From Mycobacterium sp. Root265 (lineage in GTDB: Bacteria > Actinomycetota > Actinomycetes > Mycobacteriales > Mycobacteriaceae), in contig NZ_LMJA01000030.1 of assembly GCF_001428895.1 (NCBI RefSeq), positions 124,001 to 188,000 on the forward strand: 64,000 nucleotides of DNA, in the 5' to 3' direction. Below are positions 211 through 9,168 of the stretch, piece after piece (positions within the stretch are counted from its first letter, which is position 1; each line of letters opens with the position of its first letter). A model generated the notes under the pieces. The model did no database searches. It had not been told where the DNA came from and saw only the letters and a list, made by a program, of their open reading frames with translations. The translations under genes were made by a program, and so were the position numbers.

Positions 211-1635
211 GTGACCGCGATCGATCCGGACAAGCTGCGCGCCTGCCTGCAGGTGCTGGCCGACGTCGAATCGTTGCCGCCCGAGCACCCGGACGCGGTC
301 GCCGTCCGACGCGCCACCGCGGGCATCTTCAAGTCGGTGCGCAAGGCCCGCAGGCACGCCAAGCGCGACGCGGTGGCCGAGGCCGACAAGGCTGTCATCG
401 CCGCGACCGCCACCGGGGCGCCCGGACGTATCGACGACGAGACGGCCGGCCTGCCGCTGGTCTCCTCGGTGACCGGCGCGTCCGCGGGAACCCTGCTGCG
501 GTCGCGGGCGTGCTACATCTGCAAGAAGCAGCACACCGTCGTCGACGCCTTCTACCACCAGCTTTGTCCGGAATGCGCGGCGTTCAGCCATGCCAAACGT
601 GACGCCCGCACCGACCTGACCGGCCGCACCGCGCTGCTCACCGGCGGGCGCGCCAAGATCGGCATGTACATCGCGTTGCGCCTGCTGCGCGACGGTGCAC
701 ACACCACGATCACCACCCGCTTCCCGAACGACGCGGTGCGCCGCTTCGCCGCCATGCCCGACAGCGCCGACTGGCTGCACCGGCTGCGGATCATCGGCAT
801 CGACCTGCGCGATCCCGCTCAGGTGGTGGCGCTGGCCGACACGGTGGCCGCGCACGGACCGCTGGACATCCTGATCAACAACGCCGCGCAGACGGTGCGC
901 CGGGCACCCGGCTCCTACTCGGCGCTCGTCGAGGCCGAACGCACGCCGCCGCCCGAGCTGGCTCAGGTCGACGTGGTCACCTTCGACCGGGTCAGCGACG
1001 CGCACCCGGCGGCACTGGCGGGCAGCCTGGCCGAGCATCAGACTCCGCACGCGATCACCGAGCTGGCGTTGACGGCCCGCAGTGCTTCGCCGGAGCGGAT
1101 CGCGGCAGGCACGGCCATCGACGCGGGCGGACTGCTGCCCGACACGGCCCCCATCAACAGCTGGACCCAGCGCGTGCACGAGGTCGACGCGATGGAGCTG
1201 CTGGAAGTGCAGCTCTGCAACCAGACCGCCCCGTTCATCCTGGTGAGCCGGCTGCGACCGGCGATGGCCGCATCGCCCGCACGCCGCAAGTACGTCGTGA
1301 ACGTCTCGGCGATGGAGGGGCAGTTCGGCCGCCGCTACAAGGGGCCCGGGCATCCGCACACCAACATGGCCAAGGCCGCGCTGAACATGCTCACCCGCAC
1401 CAGCTCCGCCGAGATGCTGGAACAGGACGGCATCCTGATGACCGCCGTGGACACCGGCTGGATCACCGATGAGCGGCCGCACCCCACCAAGCTGCGGCTG
1501 GCCGAGGAAGGCTTCCACGCGCCGCTGGATCTGGTCGACGGCGCCGCGCGCGTCTATGACCCGATCGTGCGCGGCGAGGCCGGCGAGGATCTGCACGGCT
1601 GCTTCCTGAAGGATTACGCGCCCAGCGAGTGGTAG
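211..1635 (+). CDS. atypical SDR-fold oxidoreductase with N-terminal Cys4 extension
   Basis: 474 residues, GTG start. Residues 1-135 are an extension with two CxxC pairs (C101/C104 and C119/C122), which look like a structural zinc site. A Rossmann domain follows, with a TGG...KIG nucleotide loop near residue 144 and an NNAAQT motif. The catalytic serine position is present (S366 in NVSAMEG). The usual YxxxK reads TNMAK (T384, K388), so the SDR catalytic tyrosine is missing. It is much longer than a classical SDR of about 250 residues. Oxidoreductase activity is therefore uncertain; it may be a divergent SDR or a binding protein. Its last codons lie in a 32-bp sequence that recurs downstream of the Fic gene. 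Confidence 0.75.
   Translation: MTAIDPDKLRACLQVLADVESLPPEHPDAVAVRRATAGIFKSVRKARRHAKRDAVAEADKAVIAATATGAPGRIDDETAGLPLVSSVTGASAGTLLRSRACYICKKQHTVVDAFYHQLCPECAAFSHAKRDARTDLTGRTALLTGGRAKIGMYIALRLLRDGAHTTITTRFPNDAVRRFAAMPDSADWLHRLRIIGIDLRDPAQVVALADTVAAHGPLDILINNAAQTVRRAPGSYSALVEAERTPPPELAQVDVVTFDRVSDAHPAALAGSLAEHQTPHAITELALTARSASPERIAAGTAIDAGGLLPDTAPINSWTQRVHEVDAMELLEVQLCNQTAPFILVSRLRPAMAASPARRKYVVNVSAMEGQFGRRYKGPGHPHTNMAKAALNMLTRTSSAEMLEQDGILMTAVDTGWITDERPHPTKLRLAEEGFHAPLDLVDGAARVYDPIVRGEAGEDLHGCFLKDYAPSEW
1598..1629 (+). repeat. direct repeat copy 1 (SDR 3' end)
   Basis: A 32-bp stretch at the 3' end of the SDR gene, starting GCTGCTTCCTGAAGG, matches positions 2971-3002 at 30 of 32 bases. This copy is coding (CFLKDYAPSE) and ends just before the stop codon. 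The two copies bracket the Fic gene and its operator. Confidence 0.85.
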
Positions 1636-1753
1636 CTGGGCGCTGTCGCCCGTCCGCGAGATTGCGGTTATCGCGTGAAAGTACGAGTGGCTCGCGCAGA
1701 AACAGCAATCTCACGGGCCAGGGGCTTGCCACAACTGAAGTCCACTCTGCCTA

Positions 1754-1785
1754 TTAACTTCACTTAGCTCCATAAGTGAAGTTAA
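1754..1785 (+). promoter_or_regulatory. perfect inverted repeat, probable Fic operator/promoter
   Basis: TTAACTTCACTTA (1754-1766) and TAAGTGAAGTTAA (1773-1785) form a perfect 13-bp inverted repeat around a 6-bp spacer. The half-site core ACTTCACTT occurs a third time at 1798-1806, in codons 2-4 of the Fic gene. The AT-rich run GTTAAAATAT just after the palindrome could be a -10 element, which would leave almost no 5' leader. The symmetry suits a dimeric regulator. Control by the Fic protein's own winged-helix tail is an inference. Confidence 0.75.
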
Positions 1786-1794
1786 AATATATCG

Positions 1795-2967
1795 ATGACT
1801 TCACTTCGGCCGATCTTCCGCGAGGACGTTTGTTGGGAACCGCAGGGGGTGACGTATTCGCGCGCTGCGCGGCCGCGCTATGGCACCTATCACCCGTGCG
1901 TGCCCGCCGCCATTGCTGACCTAGCACTCGACTTGCCGCCGTCGGTGCTCGTCGCGGCTGAGTCGGCCAGCCGCGAGATCGCACGGTTTGACGCCGAACT
2001 CGGCGGCGAGATCGCACCGTTTGCGGCCGTCCTACTGCGGTCGGAATCCGCCGCGAGCTCACAGATCGAGAACCTGACCGCATCGGCGCGCGCAATCGGC
2101 GAGGCCGAGCTGCCCGGCGGCAAGGCCAAGCGCAACGCGGCCATGGTCGTCGCCAACACCGCGGCGATGCGGGCGGCGGTCGCACTGTCCGACACCGTCG
2201 ACGCCGAGGCTGTCCGGGCGATGCACCGTGCGTTGATGATCAACGATCCGCGTCATACGCCGGGCGAATTCCGCACCGAGCCGGTGTGGATCGGCGGCGG
2301 GTCGACTCCCATCGGCGCGACATTTGTCGGCCCGCGCCATGAGTTGGTCCCCGGGGCGATTGACGATCTGGTCATTTTCGCACAGCGTGCTGACCTTCCC
2401 GCGCTGCCGCAGATCGCAGTGAGCCACGCACAGTTCGAGACCATTCACCCCTTCACCGACGGCAACGGCCGCACGGGCCGCGCCTTGGTGCAAGCGATGC
2501 TGCGCAACAAAGGTCTGTCGCGTCAGGTCACGGTGCCGGTCTCAGCCGGGCTGCTGGCCGACACCGATGGGTATTTCGCCGCGTTGACGAGCTACCGCGA
2601 GGGCGATGCCGCCCCCATTGTCGTGCGGTTCTCGCAGGCCACGGTCCTGGCCATCGCCAACGGACGCCAGTTGGTCGACGAACTGCGTGACATCCGGGAA
2701 TCCTGGAACAGTGTGATCACCGCACGCGCCGACTCCGCGGTGTGGAAGGTCGCAGACCTGTTGACCCGCCGCCCGGTCGTGAACGCCGCGTTGCTGGCGC
2801 AAGAGCTGGGCATCGAGTCCACCAACGCGCACCGCTACCTCAACCCGCTCACCGATGTGGGAATCCTCGTCGAGGCAACGAACGGACCTCGGAACCGGGT
2901 GTGGCGTTCCCCCGAAGTGCTTGCCGCGCTCGATGCTTTCGCCGAACGCGCCGGCCGGCGCGGCTGA
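1795..2967 (+). CDS. Fic family protein with N-terminal inhibitory motif and C-terminal winged helix
   Basis: 390 residues. Fic enzymes usually transfer AMP, or another phosphate-linked group, to a target protein hydroxyl. The core motif HPFTDGNGRTGR is intact at residues 218-229, with H218 as catalytic base. An inhibitory helix motif SSQIEN is at 88-93 and fits (S/T)xxxE(G/N); its glutamate normally blocks ATP in class II Fic proteins, so the enzyme is probably self-restrained. The last ~100 residues look like a winged helix, with phrases such as NAALLAQELGIESTNAHRYL. No Shine-Dalgarno is visible, so the message may be leaderless. The gene sits alone between two copies of a 32-bp repeat, which points to acquisition. 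The target protein is unknown. Confidence 0.93.
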   Translation: MTSLRPIFREDVCWEPQGVTYSRAARPRYGTYHPCVPAAIADLALDLPPSVLVAAESASREIARFDAELGGEIAPFAAVLLRSESAASSQIENLTASARAIGEAELPGGKAKRNAAMVVANTAAMRAAVALSDTVDAEAVRAMHRALMINDPRHTPGEFRTEPVWIGGGSTPIGATFVGPRHELVPGAIDDLVIFAQRADLPALPQIAVSHAQFETIHPFTDGNGRTGRALVQAMLRNKGLSRQVTVPVSAGLLADTDGYFAALTSYREGDAAPIVVRFSQATVLAIANGRQLVDELRDIRESWNSVITARADSAVWKVADLLTRRPVVNAALLAQELGIESTNAHRYLNPLTDVGILVEATNGPRNRVWRSPEVLAALDAFAERAGRRG

Positions 2968-2970
2968 TCA

Positions 2971-3002
2971 GCTGTTTCCTGAAGGATTGCGCGCCCAGCG
3001 AG
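2971..3002 (+). repeat. direct repeat copy 2 (SDR 3'-end remnant)
   Basis: Second copy of the 32-bp sequence at 1598-1629, with two mismatches (fifth and nineteenth bases). It begins three bases after the Fic stop codon. In the matching frame it reads CFLKDCAPSE, a diverged copy of the SDR C-terminus, but it belongs to no intact gene here. Sequence on both sides differs from copy 1, so the shared segment is sharply bounded. Confidence 0.85.
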
Positions 3003-3079
3003 GCCATCGGGGTTTGTCGGACCGACGCGCTACGGTGCGATCAAGAACGAGAAGCACACGGCAATTGATCGAGATGTAG

Positions 3080-3152
3080 TACCCCCGACAGGATTCGAAC
3101 CTGCAACCGACCGGGTAGAAACCGGATGCGCTATCCGTTGCGCCACGGGGGC
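3080..3152 (-). tRNA. tRNA-Arg (anticodon UCU)
   Basis: On the minus strand a full 73-nt cloverleaf can be drawn: acceptor GCCCCCG pairing with CGGGGGT (closing G-U pair), a D arm, a TCCGG/CCGG anticodon stem with loop TTTCTAC, and a T arm with GGTTCGAATCC. The anticodon TCT reads AGA/AGG, rare arginine codons in GC-rich genomes. The CCA end is not encoded. Its 3' end faces the Fic gene. Confidence 0.93.
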
Positions 3153-3251
3153 AAGTCGGACCACCGTAATTTACACCGCGGCGACGTCCTTGCAGAAACG
3201 GATGTGCACTACGTGGGCTGCTCGCACCGCATTCGACGAGATGGGCGATCA

Positions 3252-3707
3252 GTGGTTCGACATCACACCAAAGACAAGGGCGACCTCGGTGTCGCCAAAG
3301 CGCACGCCGACCTGGTGACCAAGGGGTTCTATGTGCTTTTCCCGACTACCGAGCACGCGCCGTTCGACCTCGTTGCGTATGCGGACGGCGCTTTTCACCG
3401 GGTCCAGGTGAAATATCGGTCGGCGCGTGGAGGCGCTATCCACCTGAACCTCCGGTCCACATGGTCAGACCGCCACGGCGTTCATTCGACACCCATCGAC
3501 AAGTCATCCGTCGACGCAATCTGCATCTACTGCCCGGAGACCGATGAGTGTTATTACATCCGGCCGACTGACCACGGCGCTTCCGTCAATCTTCGGATCA
3601 CGCCGACCAAGAACGGTCAGCAGAAACGAATCCTGCCGGCCGCATCATTCCGCGACCTGCCGGACAGACTCCCGAATCCTGCAGACAACTTCCGCACCTC
3701 GGCGTGA
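3252..3707 (+). CDS. PD-(D/E)XK nuclease-like protein
   Basis: 151 residues from a GTG at 3252. The open frame extends back through the tRNA-Arg, so upstream starts are unlikely; a GTG at 3204 is the only other realistic choice. The sequence runs KDKGDLGVAKAHADLVTKGFYV, then PFDLVAY, then HRVQVKYRS. This matches the layout of small PD-(D/E)XK endonuclease-fold proteins related to group I intron endonucleases: a basic start, a helix, the metal-binding Asp (D39) and a QxK core (Q52, K54). No partner methylase is nearby, so a restriction system is not supported. It may be part of the Fic/tRNA islet. Nuclease activity is inferred from the fold only. Confidence 0.65.
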   Translation: MVRHHTKDKGDLGVAKAHADLVTKGFYVLFPTTEHAPFDLVAYADGAFHRVQVKYRSARGGAIHLNLRSTWSDRHGVHSTPIDKSSVDAICIYCPETDECYYIRPTDHGASVNLRITPTKNGQQKRILPAASFRDLPDRLPNPADNFRTSA

Positions 3708-3839
3708 AGCCGCCGTGAATTCCGACGCGGCCGCCGTATGACAGCCACGAAAGCCGCGTCGCACCGCGGCGTCGCCGACTAGCGTGGACGCTGCAGGGTG
3801 GCCGCTGGTGGAGCGCCGTGCAGGAGGAGAGTTCGCGCG

Positions 3840-5309
3840 ATGAGCAAGGTGCCGTTGGATGCGGCGGGGCTGCCCCAGAAACTGAACGGCGTCGACACAT
3901 TGCTGCATCGTGGCGAGGCCAATCCCCGTACCCGGTCGGGCATCATGGGCGTCGAACTGCTTGACACCACCCCCGATTGGGAGCGGTTTCGCGCAGTGTT
4001 CGAGCAGGCGTCGCGCAAGGTGCTGCGGTTGCGCCAGAAGGTCGTCATGCCGACGCTGCCGACGGCCTCACCGCGCTGGGTGGTCGACCCGGACTTCAAC
4101 CTCGATTTCCATGTGCGCCGGGCCCGGGTCCCCGAACCGGGCACGCTGCGTGAGGTGCTCGATCTCGCCGAGATCGCGCTGCAGTCCCCGATGGACATCA
4201 CTCGGCCGCTGTGGAGTGCCACCCTGGTCGAAGGTCTGGCCGACGGCCGGGCCGCCACCATCCTGCACCTGAGCCACGCCGTCGCGGACGGGGTCGGCAC
4301 GGTCGAGATGTTCGCCCACCTCTACAACCTGGAACGCGATGTCGAGATCGGTGAGCTTGCGCCGCTGCCGATTCCGCAGGATCTGTCGGCCAATGACCTG
4401 ATGAGAATGGGCATCAACCGGCTGCCCATGAAGATCACCAACAGCATGCTCGGCCTGCTCGGCGGCGCTGTGCACGCGGTCACCAACGTGGTGCGCGATC
4501 CCGCCGCCGCGGTCAGCGGCGTTGTGGACTACGCGCTGTCGACCACCCGGGTGTCCCGGCCGGTCGCCGACCATTCACCGCTACTGCGCCGGCGCAGCCT
4601 GACCACGCGTAGCGAGGCCATCGACATCGTGTTCTCTGACCTGCACAAGGCCGCCAAGGCCGCGGGCGGATCCATCAACGACGTCTACCTGGCCGGGTTG
4701 TGCGGTGCGCTGCGGTTCTACCACGAGGCCCTCGGCATGCCGATCGACACCTTGCCGATGGCGGTGCCGGTGAACCTGCGCTCCGATGACGACCCGGCCG
4801 GCGGAAACCGGTTCGCCGGTATCAATCTCGCCGCACCGATCGGCATCGCCGATCCGGAGCGCCGGATCAAGGCGATCCGCTCGCAGATGACCAGCAAGCG
4901 AGAGGAACGCGCCATCGACATGGTCGGAACGATCGCGCCGATCGCCAGTTTCCTGCCCGACGCCGTGCTCGAATCGGCGGCCAGTTCGGTGGTCAACTCC
5001 GATGTGCAGGCCAGCAATGTGCCGGTCTACCCCGGCGACACGTTCATCGCCGGGGCAAAAGTGCTGCGGCACTACGGTCTCGGACCGCTGCCGGGAGTCG
5101 CGATGATGACCGTGCTGGTATCGCGCGGCGGTTACGTCACCGTCACGACGCGCTACGACCGGGCCGCGTTCATCGATGACGCACTGTGGGCCCGGTGCCT
5201 GCTGCGGGGCTTCGACGAGATTCTGGCACTCGGCGGGGACGGCCGCACCGTACCGGCCTCCTTTGCGGCCCCCGAAACCCGCTCATCGAATGGAAGTGCT
5301 GCGCAATGA
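3840..5309 (+). CDS. wax ester synthase/diacylglycerol acyltransferase (WS/DGAT)
   Basis: 489 residues, from the ATG preceded by AGGAGGAGAG. This family makes triacylglycerol or wax esters by moving an acyl chain from acyl-CoA to diacylglycerol or an alcohol. The catalytic region reads LSHAVADG at 144-151. The usual HHxxxDG has its first histidine replaced by S145, while the catalytic second histidine (H146) and D150 G151 remain. The C-terminal half keeps the family's NDVYLAGLCGALR-type segment. It overlaps plsC by ATGA, so it heads a glycerolipid operon matching the M. tuberculosis Rv2484c-Rv2483c-Rv2482c order. Activity may differ from the major Tgs enzymes because of the altered motif. Confidence 0.9.
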   Translation: MSKVPLDAAGLPQKLNGVDTLLHRGEANPRTRSGIMGVELLDTTPDWERFRAVFEQASRKVLRLRQKVVMPTLPTASPRWVVDPDFNLDFHVRRARVPEPGTLREVLDLAEIALQSPMDITRPLWSATLVEGLADGRAATILHLSHAVADGVGTVEMFAHLYNLERDVEIGELAPLPIPQDLSANDLMRMGINRLPMKITNSMLGLLGGAVHAVTNVVRDPAAAVSGVVDYALSTTRVSRPVADHSPLLRRRSLTTRSEAIDIVFSDLHKAAKAAGGSINDVYLAGLCGALRFYHEALGMPIDTLPMAVPVNLRSDDDPAGGNRFAGINLAAPIGIADPERRIKAIRSQMTSKREERAIDMVGTIAPIASFLPDAVLESAASSVVNSDVQASNVPVYPGDTFIAGAKVLRHYGLGPLPGVAMMTVLVSRGGYVTVTTRYDRAAFIDDALWARCLLRGFDEILALGGDGRTVPASFAAPETRSSNGSAAQ

Positions 5310-6826
5310 GTTCGGCGGACGGACAATCGGGCGGCTCGAAGATCATGCGGCTGCCAGGCACGGTGGCCGAGATCGAAGCGAGCCCCGAGGGGCCCCAGGT
5401 GGGCGCCTTCTTCGACCTGGACGGCACCCTGGTCGCCGGTTTCACCGGCGTGCTGATGACACGGGATCAGTTGCGGCGCGGCCAGATGAGCGTCGGTGAG
5501 TTCATCGGCATGGTGCAGGCCGGTATCAACCATCAGCTGGGCCGCTCGGAGTTCGAGGATCTGATCGGCAAGGGTGCGCGCATGCTGCACGGGAACTCGA
5601 TCAGCGACCTCGACGAACTCGGTGAGCGGCTGTTCATCCAGCATGTCCGCGACCGGATCTACCCGGAGATGCGGGCCATGGTGCGCGCGCACATGGCCCG
5701 TGGCCACACCGTCGTACTGAGCTCCTCGGCGCTGACGGTGCAGGTGGAACCGGTCGCCCGCTTCCTGGGCATCGACAACGTGCTGAGCAACAAGTTCAAG
5801 GTCGACGAGCACGGCCTGATCACCGGCGAGGTCGAGGAACCGATCATCTGGGGCCCGGGCAAAGCCCATGCCGTCCAGAAGTTCTCGGCCGCCAACGGCG
5901 TCGACCTGACCAAGAGCTACTTCTACGCCGACGGCGACGAGGATGTCGCGTTGATGTATCTGGTCGGCAACCCGCGGCCCACCAACCCGGCCGGGAAGCT
6001 GGCATCGGTCGCGCAGAAGCGCGGCTGGCCGATCCTGAAGTTCAGCAGCCGCAGCGGCAGCAGTCCGGTGTCCCAGCTGCGCACCCTGGCCAGTCTGGCG
6101 ACCATCCCGACGGTCGCGGCCGGCGCCATCGGGCTGGGGCTGCTCACCCGCAACAAGCGCGTCGGCGTCAACTTCTTCACCTCCAACTGGAGCAGGCTGC
6201 TGATGCTCACCACCGGCATCGAGCTCAACGTGCTGGGCGAGGAGAATCTGACCGCGCAACGCCCGGCGGTGTTTCTCTTCAACCACCGCAACCAGGCCGA
6301 CCCGATGATCGCCGGCCGGCTGGTCAACGTGGACTTCACCAGCGTGGGAAAGAAAGAGCTGGAGAAGAACCCGCTGATGGGTCCGCTGGGCAAGGTGATG
6401 GACGCGGCGTTCATCGACCGTGACGACACCCAGTCCGCTGTCGAAGGCCTGCGCAAGGTGGAAGAGCTTGCCCGCAAAGGTCTTTCCATCATGATCGCGC
6501 CGGAGGGGACCCGGCTGGACACCACCGAGGTCGGCCCGTTCAAGAAGGGCCCGTTCCGCATCGCGATGGCGGCGGGTATCCCCATCGTGCCCATCGTGAT
6601 CCGCAACGCCGAGGTCATCGCCGCCCGCGACTCCAGCACCTTCAACGCGGGCAAGGTCGATGTCGCGGTGTTCCCGCCGATCCCGATCGACGGCTGGACC
6701 CACGACAATCTGACCGAGCGCATCGCCGAGGTGCGACAGCTCTACCTGGACACCCTGCTGGACTGGCCGCGGGACACGCTGCCCGACGCCGCCGTCTACC
6801 AACGCATCCGGGGAGAGCAGGCGTGA
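5306..6826 (+). CDS. plsC: bifunctional HAD-domain/1-acylglycerol-3-phosphate acyltransferase (PlsC)
   Basis: 506 residues, start fixed by the ATGA overlap with the WS/DGAT gene. Residues 30-270 are a HAD-IB phosphatase-like domain with the nucleophile motif DLDGT (D37, D39) and a DGDEDV motif. Residues 300-500 are a PlsC acyltransferase with NHRNQAD (H327, D332) and PEGTR (E400-R403). The acyltransferase part acylates lysophosphatidate to phosphatidate at the membrane. The HAD part resembles phosphoserine phosphatases but its substrate is unknown. This fusion is the same as in M. tuberculosis Rv2483c. It overlaps plsB2 by GTGA, so translation is probably coupled. Confidence 0.92.
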
Positions 6827-9168
6827 AGCAGGTTTCCGAGGACTTCGCCAGCTTCAGCCCGACCGGTGACACCTTGGTGCTGGCCGCGGTGGCCTCGCCG
6901 GCCGAACAGGAACTGCTCGACGACTGGCTGCGCCAGCAGCGCCGTGAACATCCCGAGGCCCGGCTGGAGGTGTTGTTGCTGCCGGCCAGTTCCGACGATC
7001 CGCCCGCCACCGTGATGGCCCGGCTGGTGGAACTGCTCTCGGCCGACCCGGATCGTTCGGTGGTGCCGGTGCGGGTCTTCTGGGTGCCCGGCGGTCTGCC
7101 CACCCGGTCCAAGGTGGTCTCGCTGATCTCGGGTCGCGACACCTACCGGCCACCGGAGCTGTTGCAGCGGCGCATCCTGCGCAAGGATCCCGCGCGCGCC
7201 CGGGTGGTGGCCGGTGAACCGGCCAAGGTCTCCGAGCTGCGCCAGCAGTGGAACGACACCACGGTCGCCGAAAACCCCAGGGAGTTCGCCCGTTTCGTGA
7301 TCCGTCGCGCGATCCTGGCGATCGAGCGGGTGGAACTGCGGCTGCTGGGCCCGGAGTACAAGTCGCCGCGTCTGGTCAAACCCGAGATGCTGGCCTCGGC
7401 GCGGTTCCGGGAGGGGCTGGAAAAGATCCCGGGCGCCACGGTCGAAAAGGCCGGCGAGATGCTCGACGAGCTGTCCACCGGGTGGAGCCGCTTTTCCGTC
7501 GACCTCATCCCGACACTGGGCCGTGCCATCTTCAGTCGCGGCTTCGATCCCAAGATCGACTACGACAGCACCGAGGTCGAGTCGATGCGGCACAGTCTCG
7601 AGACCCACCCGGCGGTGCTGCTGTTCTCGCACCGGTCCTACCTCGACGGCGTCATCGTCCCGGTCGCCATGCAGGAGAACAGGCTTCCGCCGGTGCACAC
7701 CTTCGCCGGGATCAACCTGTCCTTCGGCTTCATGGGCCCGATCTTCCGGCATTCCGGCGTGATCTTCCTGCGCCGCAAGCTCGACGACCCGCTGTACAAG
7801 TACGTGCTGCGTCAGTACGTCGGGTACATCGTGGAGAAGCGCTTCAACCTGAACTGGTCCATCGAGGGCACCCGGTCACGCACCGGAAAGATGCTGCCGC
7901 CCAAGCTCGGACTGCTGTCCTATGTCGCCGACGCCTATCTCGACGGGCGCAGCGAGGACATCCTGTTGCAGCCGGTGTCGATCAGCTTCGACCAGTTGCA
8001 TGAGACCGCCGAGTACGCCGAGTACGCCCGAGGAGGGGAGAAAACCCCGGAGAGCGTGAGCTGGCTCTACAACTTCATCAAGGCGCAGGGCGAGCGCAAC
8101 TACGGAAAGATCTACGTCCGTTTCCCCGAAGCGGTGTCCATGCGCCAGTATCTCGGCGAACCCAACGGGCCGATTGCCCAGGACGAGGACACCAAACGGT
8201 TGGCCATGCAGAAGATGGCCTTCGAAGTGGCCTGGCGCATCGTGCGGGTCACCCCGGTCAATGCGACGGGATTGGTCTCGGCGCTGCTGCTGACCGCCCG
8301 CGGGGTGGCGCTCACCGTGGGGCAGCTGCACCACACGTTCCGGGATGCGCTGGATTACCTTGAGCGCAAAGAGATCCCGATGACCAACAGCGTGTTGCGG
8401 CTGCGCACCCCGGAGGGGGTGCGGGCGGCCGTGGACGCGTTGTCGGGTGGTCACCCGGTGACCCGGGTGGACGGTGGCCGCGAACCGGTCTGGCGGATCG
8501 CCCCCGACGATGAGCACGAGGCCGCGTTCTACCGGAACTCGATCATCTACGCGTTTCTGGAGACTTCACTCATCGAGCTGGCGCTCGCCCATGCCGCGCG
8601 CGCCGAGTCCGACTGGCTCGAGGTGTTCTGGGCGCAGGTGATCCGGCTGCGTGATCTGCTCAAGTTCGAGTTCTACTTCGCGGACTCGGCGACGTTCCGG
8701 GCGAACATCACCACCGAGATGGGCTGGGTGCCGGACTGGGAGGAGAAGATCGCCTCGGGCCCCGAAGGGATCACCGCCGTCCTGCGGACCAAGCAGCCGC
8801 TGCTCGGGGCGGCGATGCTGCGGCCGTTCTTCGAGGCCTATGAGATCGTCGCCGACGTCCTGCGCGACGCCGCCGCCGAGATCGCGGAGGCGGACCTGAC
8901 CAAGCTCGCCATGGGCGTCGGGCGCCAGCACGTGGCTCAGGGCAGGGTGCGCAGTGCTGAGTCGGTGTCGGCGCTGCTGTTCGCCACCGCACGTCAGGTG
9001 GTGGCCGACCAGGGTCTGCTGCGGCGTGCCGAGGATCTCTCCGAGCGGAGGACGGCGTTCCTGCACGAGATGCGCGACATCCTGGCCGACATGGACACCG
9101 TGGAGGTCGCCTCCCGTGATCAGTTCAACGCACGCGAGCGGGCCTCACGCCGGTCCGCGGGTCGCTGA
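6823..9168 (+). CDS. plsB2: glycerol-3-phosphate acyltransferase PlsB2
   Basis: 781 residues, GTG start inside the plsC stop. It catalyses the first acylation of glycerol-3-phosphate in phospholipid and triacylglycerol synthesis. The active-site block HRSYLDG (H270, D275) is the HxxxxD motif, followed by [11 protein letters not shown], then [15 protein letters not shown], which are the substrate-binding blocks of PlsB-type enzymes. Length and order match M. tuberculosis Rv2482c. With the two genes before it, it gives a unit covering both acylations and a triacylglycerol step. There are only 23 bp before the next gene, which is unrelated in function. Confidence 0.93.

Follow-up and report, generated by a model that had tools for sequence, protein, structure and literature searches.

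A 32-bp direct repeat around a mycobacterial Fic gene as a probable recombination seam beside a tRNA-Arg(TCT) gene

How does a single Fic gene come to stand between two copies of its neighbor's 3′ end? The question is raised by a locus in a 64,000-nucleotide stretch of Mycobacterium sp. Root265 (contig NZ_LMJA01000030.1, positions 124,001 to 188,000), called the window below. In it, the Fic gene (1795..2967, + strand) follows an SDR-family gene and is bracketed by a 32-bp direct repeat. A previous reading, made from the sequence only, took the two copies to be the footprint of site-specific integration or of excisable cargo, apparently just Fic and its operator (about 1.34 kb). The 32-bp repeat is not a simple att scar. 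We propose, with a probability of roughly 0.7, that it marks where recombination joined two versions of a hotspot that lies between the SDR gene and a WS/DGAT gene and that includes a tRNA-Arg(TCT) gene.

Structure of the repeat and layouts of the locus

Copy 1 (1598..1629, + strand) lies within the intact 3′ end of the SDR gene, and copy 2 (2971..3002, + strand) begins 3 bases beyond the Fic stop codon (2965-2967). The copies run in the same direction, are 1373 bp apart and are 94% identical (30/32; E = 2e-9 in a BLAST comparison of the two 1.5-kb flanks of Fic against each other). The sequence-only reading was right about this pair and its two mismatches, and partly right about copy 1, which belongs to the SDR 3′ end but does not include its final sense codon (TGG, 1630-1632) and so falls just short of being the last 32 coding bases before the TAG stop. 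With up to 3 mismatches allowed, a 27-base pattern spanning both copies matched only these two sites in the genome, the reversed pattern used as a control gave zero matches, and the viral contigs hold no exact match, which rules out a dispersed repeat. Fic is bracketed in the same way in genome G096 (29/32), and G198 has the bracket around a mostly deleted Fic.

Sequence of the locus was searched for in 397 genomes of the genus and 297 relatives, two overlapping samples in which the matches listed, or two candidates per genome, were scored; among the matches listed in the 297 relatives, there was no genome nearer to the window than those compared. Three states of the locus occur among relatives. 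In G121 and G034, which lack Fic and have one 32-bp copy, the SDR gene is followed by its stop, a hairpin, tRNA-Arg(TCT) and WS/DGAT (N version). In G187 and G317, also without Fic and with one copy, the SDR stop is followed by a short spacer and a tRNA-Arg(TCT) that both differ from those of G121 and G034, and by a PD-(D/E)XK gene (R version). In the window, G096 and G198, the SDR gene, its stop and a hairpin of the G121/G034 type lead into Fic (mostly deleted in G198), after which a second 32-bp copy opens a segment of the G187/G317 type with spacer, tRNA and a PD-(D/E)XK gene that is truncated in G096. The joint is common to these three genomes. An N-type flank on the left, an R-type flank on the right and a partial duplication of 32 bp at one joint match the product of homology-facilitated illegitimate recombination (HFIR).

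The segment comprising the last SDR codon, the stop and the hairpin (1630..1712, + strand; arms at about 1655-1664 and 1704-1714) is the N-type flank, present in the Fic-less G121 and G034 and absent from G187 and G317; it has three weak partial matches elsewhere in the genome. The alignment of the window to G121 stops at 1715 and that to G034 at 1712, and both resume from 3773. Two blocks of the window align to G187, 1-1648 and 2953-7000; both match one stretch of 70 bases in G187, which is its only SDR end, and in G317 this overlap is 56 bases. The R-type spacer (3003..3078, + strand) aligns colinearly with the interval from SDR to tRNA in G187 and G317, and a comparable spacer precedes the tRNA in G299, G124, G128 and G297.

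Because 1630-1712 is ordinary SDR downstream sequence in the Fic-less G121 and G034, there is no foreign junction at copy 1, which is native on both sides, whereas att repeats would lie at both foreign/native junctions. The copies thus do not appear to be the ends of an element. Because an empty site exists and the window aligns in two blocks to G187 and over its native flank to G121 and G034, copy 1 can be assigned to a left parent and copy 2 to the SDR tail of a right parent; it reads as what is left of a second SDR gene and is colinear with the one SDR end present in G187 and in G317. Copy 2 was probably left by one-sided homologous recombination. The sequence-only reading had also treated Fic as added cargo and predicted an empty site with a single 32-bp copy, and such a site is indeed present in G187, G317, G121, G034 and G200, all Fic-less at the locus. 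Its limitation of the cargo to Fic and the operator does not hold: relative to G121 and G034, the foreign stretch extends from about 1716 to 3772 and includes a different tRNA-Arg(TCT) and the PD-(D/E)XK gene. No integrase was found, in agreement with that reading, among the four proteins scanned (SDR, Fic, PDDEXK_5 and WS/DGAT), the remaining window not having been scanned for one. The alignments bring out two versions with single-copy sites, a joint between them and an exchange of the tRNA gene.

tRNA alleles at the hotspot and the linked endonuclease

The tRNA-Arg(TCT) gene of the window (3079..3152, − strand) is the only such gene detected in the genome, is predicted by ARAGORN as an uninterrupted gene of 74 nucleotides, and occupies the place of a different allele in G121 and G034. 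A tRNA-Arg(TCT) gene lies within 3 kb upstream of WS/DGAT in 85 of 86 loci, of which 61 are the window or came from the WS/DGAT ranking and 25 from earlier searches. A 0-mismatch tRNA-Arg(TCT) pattern, which is blind to a tRNA with another T arm, gave exactly one site in each of 35 genomes, at the hotspot in 34 and elsewhere in G033; a 2-mismatch pattern was not specific, with as many matches as its reversed control, and the 0-mismatch run was used instead. At the WS/DGAT locus of G033 (L297), there is no tRNA-Arg(TCT) at the usual place and the copy is about 25 kb away. Other variants of the hotspot are 1.55 kb (G160, L278) and 0.9 kb (G070, L254) of other sequence between tRNA-Arg(TCT) and WS/DGAT, and an inverted SDR gene beside the hotspot in G234 and G378 (L155 and L156).

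The tRNA sequences at the hotspot group into three classes, G121 and G034 having class 1 and the window class 3. The interval from tRNA to WS/DGAT contains a PD-(D/E)XK match in 0/17 class 1, 10/44 class 2 and 23/24 class 3 loci. The loci were recounted on 75 genomes chosen regardless of the nuclease (75 of the 78 top-ranked WS/DGAT genomes; 11 loci picked by region matches were left out, and three were skipped with the gene at a contig end), giving 0/16, 9/43 and 14/15, respectively, and one locus without the tRNA. Fisher P values for the recount are 6e-8 for class 1 versus class 3, 1e-6 for class 2 versus class 3 and 0.10 (not significant) for class 1 versus class 2, all of them too small as the genomes are related. 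In the eight-genome neighborhood of the window, G121 and G034 have class 1, G200 has class 2 and the other five have class 3, and on a simple reading more than one exchange would be needed to place all three classes there. The sole detected tRNA-Arg(TCT) gene has been replaced by another allele, which stands beside an I-Ssp6803I-like nuclease.

The nuclease open reading frame (3126..3707, + strand) matches Pfam PDDEXK_5 (E = 8.5e-46, covering 1-137 of the 138 profile positions) and the PADLOC HEase model (E = 2e-6), and its closest solved protein is 2ost (chain A, E = 1.4e-5), which we take to be I-Ssp6803I. The domain lies at 3261-3656, the true start is probably at about 3252, and the copy is intact, which is defined as one stop-free match from residue 52 or earlier to residue 175 or later. 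D81 and K96, the predicted active site on the alignment to 2ost, are kept in 38/38 stop-free homologues aligned, broken copies being left out. At least part of the nuclease is present at the same site in 33/86 WS/DGAT loci (23/75 without the 11 loci picked otherwise); of these 33 copies, 21 have an intact domain, and the other 12 are broken or truncated. The nuclease domain is situated next to the tRNA gene, unlike the arrangement of a group I intron, and a divergence at odds with that of the host genes, together with the decayed copies, agrees with a free-standing homing endonuclease.

This divergence goes both ways. Synonymous divergence (dS; intervals from 60 bootstraps) of PDDEXK between the window and G198 is 0.12 (0.08-0.19) versus 0.25-0.31 for SDR, WS/DGAT and the next gene, and between the window and G187 it is 0.61 (0.48-0.86) versus 0.27-0.29 for the neighboring genes. 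For Fic, dS between the window and G096 is 0.18 (0.13-0.23) versus 0.23-0.32 for its neighbors, the intervals overlapping for the two right-hand genes. The block of Fic and PDDEXK is accordingly younger than its surroundings. Trees from three stretches set the window, G096, G198 and G187 apart from the other four genomes (support of 84, 76 and 91), and the order inside this clade is weakly supported (64-81).

Homologues of the nuclease also accompany tRNA genes in viruses. Of 17 viral loci (L339-L355; two of the seven phage records with a homologue plus 15 viral contigs, several of which are near-identical, so that fewer are independent), 13 have tRNA-Arg(TCT) at most 70 bases from the homologue, one has tRNA-Arg(CCT) 86 bases away and three have no tRNA-Arg in the stretch examined. 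In seven of the 13 loci, the homologue match extends a few bases into the tRNA gene. A plasmid search with the endonuclease gave no match. Resistance through a changed anticodon loop, the simplest idea about the role of the tRNA, was weakened: CTTCTAA is kept by the class 2 tRNAs and by 11 of the 13 viral tRNA-Arg(TCT) genes beside the nuclease.

Origin of the joint

We suggest the following history. An N version with SDR, stop, hairpin and class 1 tRNA would already have been entered by a Fic cassette, as has occurred at this tRNA in other species, and an R version would have consisted of SDR, stop, short spacer, class 3 tRNA and the PD-(D/E)XK gene. In the ancestor of the window, or in the donor lineage of the block, the sequence just after the Fic stop would have been fused to the R version at a point 32 bp short of the SDR end. 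The product would keep the complete SDR gene, the hairpin and Fic on the left, and a leftover SDR tail would head the right part. One end may have been joined by homology and the other illegitimately, and a break made by the tRNA-linked endonuclease may have started the event. Either version may have been the recipient. We lean slightly to an R block arriving in a genome that had Fic and the class 1 tRNA, since a nuclease linked to the tRNA could account for the break, the tRNA exchange and the single faulty end.

The roles may also have been swapped, a linear fragment of SDR, hairpin and Fic having entered a genome that was already of the R version, with homology at SDR, an illegitimate right end and no part for the endonuclease. 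This is one form of the joint between two versions and is included in the probability given for it; taken separately, it deserves a substantial minority share of belief. The same final layout results, and HFIR leaving an orphan gene has been proposed for Vibrio effector arrays (PMC5361080), but the association of the class 3 tRNA with the endonuclease is not explained by this course alone.

Several observations count against a seam between two versions as we describe it. The exact N parent, which would combine SDR, hairpin and Fic with a class 1 tRNA, was not found among the matches listed in the 397 genus genomes and 297 relatives. Fic and a class 1 tRNA do stand 351 bp apart at the hotspot in G225, with WS/DGAT beyond and no PDDEXK, which speaks for the seam; against it, the left flank of that Fic is not SDR. 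The endonuclease allele of G187 is too divergent for a direct R parent, and since G187 falls inside the carrier clade, loss, replacement or lateral spread must be added. The microhomology at the joint amounts to a few bases only (CTG/GCTG matches near it).

Fic cassette at this and other loci

The Fic gene encodes 390 amino acids, contains HPFTDGNGRTGR and matches the Pfam Fic domain (E = 8e-17) and, over residues 32-379, the PADLOC SoFic model (E = 2e-67); its solved relatives are 7cb8 and SoFic. HPFTDGNGR in the translation fits the published motif HPFx(D/E)GNGR (PMC7479194). With 64 bits against a cutoff of 550, the protein is far under the NCBIfam SoFic equivalog threshold. We therefore speak of a predicted SoFic-like, defense-type protein. 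The ratio of nonsynonymous to synonymous divergence from the G096 copy is 0.15, and Fic looks to be under constraint. The predicted operator (1732..1806, + strand) consists of an inverted repeat, TTAACTTCACTTA / TAAGTGAAGTTAA, and further half-sites, one of them over the Fic start codon, and is common to Fic at other loci. Its half-sites vary between Fic subfamilies and the first Fic codons change in step (window 1732-1806, L049-L062), as if a further operator site overlapped the start codon. In most close relatives among the matches listed in the 397 genomes, DNA similarity starts at about window position 1725-1757 and ends at about 2960-2977; operator and reading frame are therefore the unit shared between loci.

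Some Fic match at E ≤ 1e-3 is present in 63/148 genomes of the genus, fragments and distant relatives included. For comparison of the flanks, 57 Fic loci were taken as the best matches with loci returned, and 50 remained after removal of 7 repeat fetches, including the window and G096 (one shared event) and five loci with shortened flanks. Fic has a tRNA gene within 1.5 kb at 17/50 loci, several of which look like one site in different species, against an expected 3.5%, a rough bound from about 50 tRNA genes per 6 Mb. A flanking direct repeat at E ≤ 1e-3 was found at 7/50 loci (the window, G096, G105, G040, G095, G141 and G038) and none at 43/50. The repeat is 43 bp of tRNA-Ala in G095, 72 bp with tRNA-Arg(TCT) in G141, 52 bp with tRNA-Met in G105 and 21 bp only in G040. 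In G141, Fic is at the same WS/DGAT locus, between repeats of the tRNA-Arg(TCT) 3′ end. In G038 (L061, Fic at 1438-2622 in its own orientation), 170 identical bases of the end of a Zincin_2 gene stand on both sides of Fic, the upstream copy ending in other codons than the downstream one, a second and cleaner case of a bracketed Fic.

Since the repeats in G095, G141 and G105 include part of a tRNA gene, island-type integration may well have brought Fic to some loci without accounting for the joint in the window. Applied to the window, it would make the copies attL and attR of a small Fic element that restores the SDR 3′ end, its integrase having acted in trans or been lost. The gene-end or tRNA-end repeats around Fic in G095, G141, G105 and G038, the frequency of nearby tRNA genes and a weak phage-integrase C-terminal match beside the G105 Fic (E = 0.0012, under the Pfam cutoff) are in its favor. 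We consider it unlikely here, because copy 1 keeps its native right flank, the four proteins scanned include no integrase, and G198 lost Fic by internal deletions yet kept both copies. A tyrosine-integrase reading of a fragment beside the G095 Fic was made by eye only; Pfam gave MazE-like and DUF1275 matches, and it is not claimed.

A copying of the SDR tail within one genome when Fic entered, by slippage or a transposition-like target duplication, would account for direct copies 1373 bp apart with 94% identity. It is distinctly improbable, as the sequence to the right of copy 2 runs on as in G187 and G317, so that an R-type flank is attached and not a bare duplicate. Chance similarity, for which nothing speaks beyond the high G+C content, has a negligible probability given the E value of 2e-9, the lack of a third genomic site, the occurrence in three genomes and the continuation into a colinear flank.

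Phages and plasmids hold no Fic relative of at least 60% identity (12/50,697 and 628/72,556 records matched, respectively, all below 60%), and hence no direct vehicle of Fic was found. Fic remnants lie directly upstream of the tRNA in G299, G273, G124, G128 and G297. Short C-terminal Fic fragments of 23 to 83 amino acids (68-91% identical) occur elsewhere in the genomes of G101, G140, G135 and G056. In G015 (L039) and G076 (L047), an intact Fic is directly preceded by sequence that resembles the start or operator of an older Fic, which suggests repeated insertion at the same spot.

As for the borders of the locus, the SDR gene (211..1635, + strand; Pfam adh_short, E = 4e-17) is complete, and its orthologues are 98% (G096), 97% (G121) and 95% (G034) identical. 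The stretch 3773..5309 (+ strand) comprises the right border of the foreign stretch, where the match to G121 and G034 resumes, and the WS/DGAT gene (ATG at 3840; Pfam WS_DGAT), the anchor of the hotspot.

Implications and comparison with known systems

The nuclease at the hotspot may be capable of homing. We put forward, tentatively and at a little short of even odds, that a free-standing PD-(D/E)XK homing endonuclease and a tRNA-Arg(TCT) gene of its own form a selfish pair that spreads through mycobacterial chromosomes: the nuclease would cut a susceptible allele of the only such tRNA gene of the host, repair would install the nuclease with a resistant tRNA, and cargo such as Fic would be carried along or stranded at the edges of conversion tracts, and the pairing in phages could be the source. 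A tRNA-linked endonuclease appears to take part in the swap of a single-copy tRNA gene, which would be a form of natural gene drive; if true, this drive replaces a probably essential tRNA gene. On the proposed history, a puzzling integrase-free repeat can be read as a recombination scar for which the layouts of both parents are named, and tRNA loci appear to collect single-gene Fic cassettes that outlast whatever brought them.

In HFIR, homology anchors one end of an incoming fragment and the other end joins without homology (PMC3240628), and the old gene is left downstream (PMC5361080). The window would share with it one homologous end, one non-homologous end and a leftover; no more than 32 bp are left over here, the layouts of both parents can be named, and the recombination itself is deduced from sequence. 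A chromosomal pair of nuclease and tRNA, or a Fic scar, is in no title found in the literature on I-Ssp6803I, SegB and tRNA, mycobacterial homing endonucleases, intronless homing and tRNA, cyanophage tRNA genes or mycobacterial Fic, and may be described elsewhere. SoFic is listed among defense models, and the Fic of the window, for which a defense role is predicted, matches the PADLOC model while being far under the equivalog cutoff.

I-Ssp6803I is a PD-(D/E)XK homing endonuclease of a group I intron in the tRNA-fMet gene of Synechocystis (PMC1995217). The nuclease of the window is of the same family and is also tRNA-linked, but I-Ssp6803I is intron-encoded, whereas the tRNA here is intronless and the nuclease domain lies beside it. 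In phage T4, the free-standing endonuclease gene segB lies between tRNA-Arg and tRNA-Ile and is over-represented among the progeny of mixed infections (PMC2988022); SegB is a phage-borne GIY-YIG enzyme, whereas the PD-(D/E)XK nuclease of the window is chromosomal and lies beside the only tRNA-Arg(TCT) gene detected in its host. For mycobacterial tRNA arrays, homing-type nucleases have been proposed as the movers of tRNA genes (PMC6582537 and PMC5966550). Those arrays mainly have HNH genes in clusters of many tRNAs, whereas in the window one resident single-copy tRNA gene has been exchanged.

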